Shown here piece after piece: positions 25,991 through 28,879 of a DNA stretch of 46,139 nt (its first letter is position 1; each line of letters opens with the position of its first letter). Made by a program: the position numbers and the translations under genes. The stretch comes from Thermococcus sp. Its GTDB lineage: Archaea; Methanobacteriota_B; Thermococci; Thermococcales; Thermococcaceae. The stretch lies in contig NZ_JALUFF010000030.1 of assembly GCF_027052235.1 (NCBI RefSeq), forward strand, positions 1-46,139, written 5' to 3'. The notes beneath the pieces were generated by a model, which worked only from the letters and a program-made list of their open reading frames with translations, was not told the origin of the DNA and searched no databases.

Positions 25991-27088
25991 ATGAGCTGGG
26001 TACAATACCTGCTGGTTACTGAATTTATCGCCGTTGTTCTGGCCGATATAACGGCCGCGATTCTCGTGTTTAGGGTGTACCTCCAGAACAGAAGAACGTC
26101 GGCACTCGCTTTCTCGCTGGCATGGGTCTTTGACTTGATCTTTGTCGTTGCGTCTATGAAACCCAACGAGCCCCTTATCGAGGCCATCGGTCTCCTGTCG
26201 CTTCCAACCTTTGGGGGTCTCCTTCTCTATGGTTCAGTGAAGTTCCTTGAGGAAGAATCCCTGAGCGTCAGCCACAGAACCCTATCCCTCTTCGCAACGA
26301 TGCCCCCCGCATTCATGCTATACATGCTCTCGGTTTACTACTACACCGGGGACCCCGTCTGGACCGCCAAGATAGCTTCGTCCCTGGGAATAAGCGGGGT
26401 CTTCGTCGTTAGCGGTGGGATGTTGCTGTGGGAGGTCAAGGAAATATATAAGAGTGCCGTTAAGTACCTCTCCATAGGGGTTATACTCTTTGGTCTGCAC
26501 CTGATTCCCGCGGCTATATTCGGTAAAACAGAGCTCTACAAGGTTGCTGGTTTTACGCTGTCAACAGTGCTGATAATTCTCATGGTTTGGGCTATGATAA
26601 AGTTAACGTCCTCCAAGGCGTTCCAAGTAGTCGGCCCCAACGGTGAAGTCGAACTCGACCTCAAACCCGGTGTGATGATAGTCGATACAAGGGACTACCC
26701 CCAGATTAGGGAGCACTTAAGAGACGTCCCTGTTCTGGCATTTTTGAGGGATATCTCAGACGTCCCGGAGAAATGGGAGACCTACTTCGTCACGACAATC
26801 CCCTTCGAGGGTAAATTCAAGGGAACGATAACTCCCACGAACCTCGCCAAGATGACCGAGCTGAGCTACCAGTACCTTGAGGCCCTATCAAAGGCTGGAA
26901 AGAAGGGCATAATCCTGATAGACTGCTTCGAATACCTAATGGTTTACAACTCCTGGGAGAGCCTGATGAAGTTCCTCTCAAAACTCAGGGACATAATTCT
27001 GGTTAACAAAGGCACTCTTATCATAGTTCTCGAAAAGGGGAGTCTCAGCGAACACAAGTACCTTCAGCTTAGGAAGCTTCTTGGCTAA
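25991..27088 (+). CDS. Membrane protein with C-terminal DUF835 domain
   Basis: 365 residues. Residues 1-205 contain about seven hydrophobic segments. Residues about 215-365 form a soluble DUF835 domain (GVMIVDTRDYPQIREHL, VPVLAFLRDISDVPEKWETYF, GIILIDCFEYLMVYNSWESL). DUF835 is common in Thermococcales, often attached to membrane or regulatory parts; it looks like a nucleotide-free alpha/beta signalling fold, and its role is unknown. The gene has a good ribosome site (GGGTGGG) and is co-transcribed with the preceding adenylate-forming-like protein, suggesting a membrane sensor or anchor for it. Confidence 0.75.
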   Translation: MSWVQYLLVTEFIAVVLADITAAILVFRVYLQNRRTSALAFSLAWVFDLIFVVASMKPNEPLIEAIGLLSLPTFGGLLLYGSVKFLEEESLSVSHRTLSLFATMPPAFMLYMLSVYYYTGDPVWTAKIASSLGISGVFVVSGGMLLWEVKEIYKSAVKYLSIGVILFGLHLIPAAIFGKTELYKVAGFTLSTVLIILMVWAMIKLTSSKAFQVVGPNGEVELDLKPGVMIVDTRDYPQIREHLRDVPVLAFLRDISDVPEKWETYFVTTIPFEGKFKGTITPTNLAKMTELSYQYLEALSKAGKKGIILIDCFEYLMVYNSWESLMKFLSKLRDIILVNKGTLIIVLEKGSLSEHKYLQLRKLLG

Positions 27089-27104
27089 TCCGAACTTGAC
27101 AAGG

Positions 27105-27113
27105 TTTTTATAC
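27105..27113 (+). promoter_or_regulatory. Promoter of H/ACA RNA
   Basis: TTTTTATAC preceded by GACAAGG (BRE-like), centre 27109. Transcription 25-26 bp downstream would begin at about 27134-27135, exactly the first base of the first RNA stem. Confidence 0.7.
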
Positions 27114-27133
27114 ACCTTTTCTGAACCAAGCAA

Positions 27134-27348
27134 TGCCCCCGCGCGAGGACCCCGGGGAGAATGAACCGGGGGGCGATGCGGGGGCTACAGCCCGGTCTCA
27201 GCGAGGTCCCCGCGGGAGGGCCTTCCGCGTTACGGAGCGCGATGACCGCGGGAAACCCAGACCGGGCACACTTCTGGCCCGCCTGGGTTAACCCGCCCGA
27301 GTTCGCCGAAGGGCACCGATGGGGGCGGGGGTTACGGGCGGGCCACAC
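27134..27348 (+). ncRNA. Three-hairpin H/ACA guide RNA
   Basis: A very G+C-rich, non-coding block in an A+T-richer gap folds into three consecutive H/ACA units. Hairpin I: lower stem 27135-27142/27178-27185, upper stem 27150-27155/27166-27171, a GA..UGA K-loop at 27156-27165, ACA 27187-27189. Hairpin II: 27190-27198/27259-27267, upper 27209-27215/27246-27252, a K-turn (GAG...GATGA), ACA 27268-27270. Hairpin III: 27276-27283/27337-27344, upper 27292-27298/27323-27329, a K-turn, ACA 27345-27347. In each, exactly 15 bases separate the upper stem from ACA, the spacing needed by Cbf5. Such RNAs direct pseudouridylation of rRNA with Cbf5, Nop10, Gar1 and L7Ae. Ends are predicted, not mapped. Confidence 0.9.
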
Positions 27349-27410
27349 CTTGAGAGTTCTCCAGCAACTCTTGGAAAGTTTCCAAAATTTAATTACCTCT
27401 CCATAAGGTG
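27345..27410. repeat. Nested inverted repeats after the H/ACA RNA
   Basis: ACACCTT (27345-27351) and AAGGTGT (27404-27410) are perfect inverted arms. Between them lie AGAGTT/AACTCT (27353-27358/27366-27371) and the perfect hairpin TTGGAAA-G-TTTCCAA (27371-27385), followed by A/T-rich bases. The first arm starts on the third ACA box. They may form a termination or 3'-end processing structure for the guide RNA, or a small separate element. Confidence 0.4.
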
Positions 27411-27464: not shown

Positions 27465-27692
27465 ATGATAGGAGCGGACTATGTTGATATACCGTGCGGA
27501 GATGCCGGCAGGGTAATCCCCTGGCTCAAAGAGAACCCCCTTCGCGAGATAATGGACAAACGGAAGAAAGAGGCTGAGGAAACCCTACAGGATATAGCCG
27601 AAAAGGAAAAGGAGATTATTAAGCTCCTTCCCGAGGAGGTCAGGGAACTCATCAAGGTTCCTGACCTAAAGGAGTTGTTGGAGGAGTACTAA
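27465..27692 (+). CDS. Small charged protein of unknown function
   Basis: 75 residues. The first 20 (MIGADYVDIPCGDAGRVIPW) are mixed; the rest is a long charged helix (MDKRKKEAEETLQDIAEKEK, then EIIKLLPEEVRELIKVPDL). No family recognised. There is no ribosome site; TTATTAA at 27433-27439 lies about 29 bp before the ATG, so a leaderless message is likely. The stop overlaps the moeA stop by 4 nt. Clean codon use and a defined promoter support a real gene. Confidence 0.6.
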   Translation: MIGADYVDIPCGDAGRVIPWLKENPLREIMDKRKKEAEETLQDIAEKEKEIIKLLPEEVRELIKVPDLKELLEEY

Positions 27693-28879
27693 TAGAGTAC
27701 CACCTCGACCTCTTCTCCCTCAAGGTAGCCCTCGCTGTCCTCTGGGATGAGGATAAAGCCGTTGCTCTCGACGAGGGAGCTTATTATCCCGCTTCCCTTC
27801 TTTTTGATTGGCCTTGCCTCACCGTTCTCATACCAGACCTTGACGAACTCAGCCCTCCCGAGCTGGCTCGGAACCCTCTCCTTGAGCCTCGCCCTAACGC
27901 GAACCTCATAGTTTCTGGCCCCCACAAGCTTGGCTAAAGCGTGCTTGACGTAGAGGTGGAACTGCGCAAAGACCGCCACTGGATAACCACTCATAACGAA
28001 TACCCTCTCGCCGTATCCTATCGGCCGGCCGGGCTTTATCGTTGTCCCGTGGAAGAGCAGGTTAACGAACCTGTGGGCGAAGTCCGTATCGCCGAAGGCG
28101 GAACCGCCCGTAACGAGGACGAGGTCGTTCTCCTCCTTCGCACGTAAGATAGTTTCACCCACGAGGCCTTCATCGTCCGGCAAAACACCGTAAAACACCG
28201 GCTCGCCGAAGTACTGCCTCACAAGCCCCTTGAGCATCACCGAGTTGCTCTCAAGGATTTTACCAGCCTTCAGTTTCTCCTCGTCGAACTCCTCTATGAG
28301 CTCGCTTCCAGTAACGATTATCCCAACGCGGGGTTTCCTCTTTACCCTCACACTCCTGAAGCAGGTTGCCTTGAGTAATGCAACGTCCTGTGGCCTTAAA
28401 ACCTGCCCCTTCCTGAGGATTACCTCACCTTCCCTGACGTCCTCCCCGGCAAATGCCACGTTCTGGCCCGGTGCCACAGGGCGAAGAACCCTGATAACGT
28501 CCCCCTCTCGCTCCGCCATCTCCTGCATGAGGACGGCGTTTGCACCCTCTGGTATTTTAGCCCCCGTGGTCAGCTTTACGGCAGTACCGGGCTCAACCTT
28601 AACTCTACTCTCATCCCCTGCTATAATCTCGTCAATGACCTTCAGCTCGACGGGGCTGTACTCCCTCGCCATGAATGTATCCTCTGCCCTAACGGCATAG
28701 CCGTCAACGGCCGCCCTGTCAAAGGGCGGGACGTTTATAGGTGAGACGATATCCTCAGCAAGAACCCTCTCGATGGCATCATCAAGGGGCACTTCCTCCA
28801 CTTCGTTTATCTCCTCGATGTCGTTAAGCAGAAGCTTCAGCGCTTCCCTGTAGGGGGTGAGGCGCTTGAACTCCCTCAT
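27689..28879 (-). CDS. moeA: Molybdopterin molybdenumtransferase MoeA
   Basis: 396 residues. It has the MoeA domain order: substrate-binding start (PLDDAIERVLAEDIVSPINV and PPFDRAAVDGYA), the MoaB-like central domain with VLVTGGSAFGDTDFA and GRPIGYGERVFVMSGYPVA, and a C-terminal beta-barrel (PIKKKGSGIISSLVESNGF). It inserts molybdate, or tungstate in Thermococcales, into adenylylated molybdopterin. It follows moaB with 1 nt between stop and ATG. The product would serve tungsten enzymes and the pterin oxidoreductase at 17.9 kb. Confidence 0.95.
   Translation of the reverse strand: MREFKRLTPYREALKLLLNDIEEINEVEEVPLDDAIERVLAEDIVSPINVPPFDRAAVDGYAVRAEDTFMAREYSPVELKVIDEIIAGDESRVKVEPGTAVKLTTGAKIPEGANAVLMQEMAEREGDVIRVLRPVAPGQNVAFAGEDVREGEVILRKGQVLRPQDVALLKATCFRSVRVKRKPRVGIIVTGSELIEEFDEEKLKAGKILESNSVMLKGLVRQYFGEPVFYGVLPDDEGLVGETILRAKEENDLVLVTGGSAFGDTDFAHRFVNLLFHGTTIKPGRPIGYGERVFVMSGYPVAVFAQFHLYVKHALAKLVGARNYEVRVRARLKERVPSQLGRAEFVKVWYENGEARPIKKKGSGIISSLVESNGFILIPEDSEGYLEGEEVEVVLY

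Follow-up and report, generated by a model that had tools for sequence, protein, structure and literature searches.

The window, the whole 46,139-nt stretch of contig NZ_JALUFF010000030.1 analysed here, comes from an uncultured Thermococcus-like genome and carries, at 27134–27348 on the forward strand, the H/ACA guide RNA HgcG (aliases Pab40, Pf7 and Tko1; Rfam RF00064), an ordinary copy of this known three-hairpin pseudouridine guide. The assignment is based on a match to the RF00064 covariance model, an alignment of 37 genomes and covariation. A gene for a DUF835 protein lies on its 5′ side (25991–27088). Directly 3′ of the guide RNA there is a 75-aa ORF (27465–27692, forward strand) with no Pfam match, and a convergent MoeA-like gene occupies 27689–28879.

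A TATA-box-like element (TTTTTATA) can be read directly at 27105–27112 on the forward strand, and its position, with the box centre ~25 bases 5′ of 27135, suggests that it serves the guide RNA gene. The Pyrococcus abyssi copy of Pab40 (G064) was located at 382332–382604, identical to the published coordinates, and the 5′ end mapped there by RNA-seq, 382,389 (PMC4652768), aligns with position 27135 of the window; the 5′ end in the window is likely at 27134–27135. The preliminary description had proposed a promoter, a start at the first stem and a length of ~215 nt, all consistent with the measured data on the P. abyssi orthologue. Scanning for sigma-70 promoters and terminators gave no match; the sigma-70 model does not apply to archaeal promoters.

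Identity and fold of the HgcG copy

The RF00064 covariance model, whose curated gathering cut-off is 77 bits, matched the window with 210.6 bits (E 4.5e-60) over 27080–27352, covering model positions 1–276 in full length. This is the covariance search that the preliminary description had suggested. Its reading of a three-unit H/ACA guide RNA is borne out by the model match, the geometry and the covariation, but it had not recognized the known family HgcG. The model begins 54 bases 5′ of the RNA start in the window, and its positions 1–57 treat the promoter region as RNA. It also draws a small side hairpin in hairpin II; in the 37-genome alignment, a K-turn upper stem covaries there.

An initial search detected HgcG in 37 of 37 same-genus genomes. 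In the taxonomic family, 88 of 94 genomes carry it, including 74 out of 74 of good quality (completeness ≥90%, contamination ≤5%), and none of the 14 control genomes contained it. Some genomes gave a weaker, paralogue-like second match; the four that were examined belong to HgcE/Pab105, another H/ACA family, and score higher under the HgcE model.

In each of the three units, a pocket separates a lower stem of 8–9 pairs from an upper stem of 6–7 pairs, which is capped by a K-turn or K-loop. Hairpin I (27135–27189, forward strand) has its lower stem at 27135–27142/27178–27185 and its upper stem at 27150–27155/27166–27171, with the pocket strands GCGAGG(A) (27143–27149) and (G)GCGA (27172–27176) and a box ACA at 27187–27189. 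In hairpin II (27190–27270, forward strand), the lower stem (27190–27198/27259–27267) and the upper stem (27209–27215/27246–27252, K-turn GA/UGA) enclose the pocket strands CAGCGAGGTC (27199–27208) and AAACCC (27253–27258), and the box ACA lies at 27268–27270. Hairpin III (27276–27347, forward strand) pairs 27276–27283 with 27337–27344 and 27292–27298 with 27323–27329, carries a K-turn GA/GAUGG, the pocket strands GGGTTA (27285–27290) and GTTAC (27331–27335), and a box ACA at 27345–27347. The upper stem is followed by the box ACA at exactly 15 bases in all three hairpins, as the preliminary description had observed, and all three comply with the archaeal H/ACA rule of a box ANA 14–15 nt past the upper stem (PMC4652768).

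The minimum free energy of the three-hairpin stretch is −130.6 kcal/mol (z = −5.2), and none of 200 shuffled sequences was equally stable. Across the 37 same-genus homologues, 98.8% of the stem cells are paired, and pairing falls to 31–54% when the stem partners are slid by 1–3 columns. Two-sided changes were detected in 14 stem pairs, against a mean of 6.1 in shuffled alignments, none of which (0/500) reached this number. The pocket strands GCGAGGA, AGCGAGGTC, AAACCC and GGGTTA are invariant in these genomes, as is the GTTA of GTTAC, the last C of which is replaced by A in two of the 37. The window has ACA as its third box, where most relatives have AUA. In hairpin III, the K-turn letters, read directly, include UGG in the window versus UGA in most relatives.

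Predicted targets of hairpins III and I

The 23S rRNA of this genome was absent from the assembly, both by covariance model and by a pattern search for helix 69 that tolerated as many as three mismatches, and target pairing was scored on the 23S rRNAs of relatives. The pocket of hairpin III matches GUAAC-UA-UAACCC with 5+6 Watson–Crick pairs and no wobble, at U2020 in the first relative's 23S tested, and helix 69 was the best 23S site for this hairpin in each of the four species displayed. The target U corresponds to E. coli 1915 and P. abyssi U2016. The helix 69 sequence GUAACUAUAACCC occurs in 17 of 17 same-genus and 4 of 4 Pyrococcus-like 23S genes; the preliminary description had made this target depend on a CCC after UAA in helix 69, and no departure from it occurred in the genus. 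The same target is published for Pab40, whose hairpin III is listed as Pa40.3-L2016 (PMC4652768): stem III of Pab40/Pf7 is reported to target the helix 69 U both in P. abyssi and in P. furiosus and to be active in vitro (PMC2584109, PMC4652768), and Pab40 makes the pseudouridine at U2016 in vitro, not the one at the 1917 equivalent (PMC2584109).

A matched change of guide and target supports this assignment. In a more distant relative (G044, L063), the hairpin III pocket reads GAGUUA versus GGGUUA in Thermococcus, and in another genome of that relative's genus (G048, L049), helix 69 reads UAACUC versus UAACCC. By eye, GAGUUA together with GUUAGU in the former could fit helix 69 in both the 1915 (4+6) and the 1917 (4+4) registers, a double fit like that proposed for HP2 of Haloferax. 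Two weak class-level matches (G041 and G057) have GAGUAG/GUUAG in this pocket, with no clean helix 69 pairing as read in G041, and are neither for nor against the co-change; both keep the three hairpins and the pocket of hairpin I.

For hairpin I, the best 23S site was UUGC_UA_CCUCGC (6+4 pairs, one of them a wobble) in one relative's 23S and in further species, giving T. kodakarensis U2592 (P. abyssi U2588) as the predicted target. The pocket in the window thereby recovers a published site: hairpin I of Pab40 is listed as Pa40.1-L2588 (PMC4652768), Pab40 guides modification of U2588 in vitro, and the equivalent Psi2592 of T. kodakarensis requires Cbf5, Nop10 and Gar1 in vivo (PMC6138745). The preliminary description had left hairpins I and II without targets, both of which were already in the literature.

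Shuffling the pocket letters reproduced the score of hairpin I somewhere in 23S in 20 out of 400 cases and that of hairpin III in 7 out of 400; given that random pockets reach such scores, the pairing by itself is suggestive, and the weight comes from orthology and the published assays. As a cross-check, all three Pab40 pockets from P. abyssi (L098) were scanned on that species' own 23S (L118), where the locus numbering equals the published one plus a constant 26. They recovered the published sites as best hits for hairpins III (U2016) and I (U2588) and as second-best for hairpin II (U1932), and for hairpins I and III, the window pockets led to these sites in the relatives' 23S as well.

Among the 23S genes L031–L047, the Thermococcales displayed have CCUCGCUGUCGG in the peptidyl transferase strand just 3′ of T. 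kodakarensis U2592; the E. coli counterpart is CCUCGAUGUCGG (A2503).

The window and P. abyssi Pab40 share the order of the hairpins, the pockets of I and III, the box spacing, the position of the 5′ end and the sites of hairpins I and III, but differ in the letters of the hairpin I stem and K-loop and in the 3′ pocket strand of hairpin II, AAACCCAG in the window versus UAACCCUG in Pyrococcus. Tko1 of T. kodakarensis is the homologue of Pab40 (PMC6138745) and probably corresponds to the copy L001 in G011; its sites are the same, that of hairpin I, U2592, agreeing exactly with the published one, and it differs from the window by minor stem substitutions and by a hairpin III with one more pair to either side. 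The Haloferax volcanii counterpart has just two hairpins, set apart by a long spacer, compared with three in the window: HP1, homologous to stem II, and HP2, homologous to stem III and directed to the same helix 69 loop (PMC2584109). The preliminary description was right that a haloarchaeal RNA acts on this loop; the name it gave, sR-h45, did not turn up in the literature consulted, and HP2 is the name of the H. volcanii homologue in PMC2584109. HP2 has been proposed as a guide for both the 1915 and 1917 equivalents (PMC2584109), whereas the hairpin III pocket of the window pairs poorly in the 1917 register.

Proposed mode of action and candidate targets of hairpin II

In H/ACA RNPs, L7Ae binds the K-turn and Cbf5 the lower stem and the box, and the pocket offers an unpaired U to Cbf5. 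The genome encodes Cbf5, Nop10, Gar1 and L7Ae, all four above the cut-off. An HgcG RNA of ~215 nt would be transcribed from its own promoter, and each hairpin would be bound by L7Ae (at the K-turn or K-loop) together with Cbf5, Nop10 and Gar1. Each pocket would then pair on both sides of a 23S U-N, a pattern found for hairpins I and III in the relatives' 23S, and Cbf5 would convert the U to pseudouridine; hairpin II has two candidate sites. The expected products are a pseudouridine in helix 69 (E. coli 1915) from hairpin III, one at P. abyssi 2588, close to the peptidyl transferase centre, from hairpin I, and one at either P. abyssi U1932 or the E. coli 2586 equivalent from hairpin II. The P. 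abyssi orthologue is the only one for which guide-dependent pseudouridylation at the predicted U has been published (PMC2584109, PMC6138745), and we infer transcription and modification activity of the copy in this genome by analogy. There is very little doubt that the locus encodes an HgcG guide RNA with hairpin III directed to helix 69, hairpin I to P. abyssi 2588 and hairpin II to one of its two candidate sites.

A structured non-coding or regulatory element without guide function, such as a leader of the 75-aa ORF or an L7Ae-binding leader, would be compatible with the small ORF starting downstream at 27465 and with the existence of archaeal L7Ae-binding leaders (PMC5539422). We consider it very improbable, given that the stretch holds three full H/ACA units whose invariant pockets match conserved 23S sites, that it belongs to RF00064, and that the orthologue has its own transcript start and in vitro activity (PMC4652768, PMC2584109). 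Structured RNAs of hyperthermophiles are GC-rich, and GC content alone says little about whether the stretch is a chance array of GC-rich hairpins in an AT-richer genome; the fold stability (z = −5.2), the E-value of 4.5e-60 and the compensatory changes in 14 pairs leave such an array a negligible probability, and the covariation refutes it.

More weight attaches to a different target of hairpin II. Pab40 hairpin II is listed as Pa40.2-L1932 in P. abyssi (PMC4652768), and in the window its target is uncertain between P. abyssi U1932 and the E. coli 2586 equivalent, the third U of GGGUUU by the peptidyl transferase centre, which is Psi2621 in Haloarcula. Retargeting in Thermococcus to the latter, unlike Pyrococcus, would fit the 3′ pocket strand, which reads AAACCC(A/G)G in 45 of 45 same-genus copies versus UAACCCUG in 11 of 11 copies from three other genera. 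With CUGGGUU_UA_GACC, at the 2586 equivalent, the window forms 7+4 pairs versus 5+4 in P. abyssi, a score matched by none of 400 shuffled hairpin II pockets, while with AAAGGGUU_UG_UAC, at U1932, it forms 5+0 versus 6+0. PMC2584109 had already put this site forward, both as a target of haloarchaeal HP1 and in an alternative structure of Pab40. However, the 7+4 register is the best among 12 tried, and its two added pairs draw on lower-stem bases. It breaks the one-layer rule that fits hairpins I and III: C27208 pairs with the target though it faces A27253 in the standard ten-layer upper stem, and A27253 stays unpaired, unlike in those hairpins. Moreover, the P. abyssi hairpin could likewise pair with the 2586 equivalent, yet P. 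abyssi lacks the modification (PMC2584109). A literature search for Thermococcus pseudouridine maps that include T. kodakarensis U1936 and U2682 (L044 numbering), the counterparts of the two candidate sites, brought up none. On balance, we regard retargeting as a possible but rather unlikely refinement, and the rest of the preferred reading of the locus as an HgcG guide would stand unchanged with it.

The two distant class relatives G041 (L061) and G057 (L062) have a wholly different hairpin II pocket, UUCCCA or GAUCCCG with AAAAG, which suggests that the target of this hairpin has probably changed across the class.

The discovery value of the locus is small: the RNA family and its helix 69 target are already known from the literature of 2008 or before, and no good-quality genome of the family lacks HgcG. 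The deduction of the helix 69 target from the sequence alone was nonetheless right. If true, the retargeting of hairpin II would be a genus-level event arising from a small change at the edge of the pocket, and the genus-wide difference in this hairpin offers one small, testable question on how guide RNAs switch targets.
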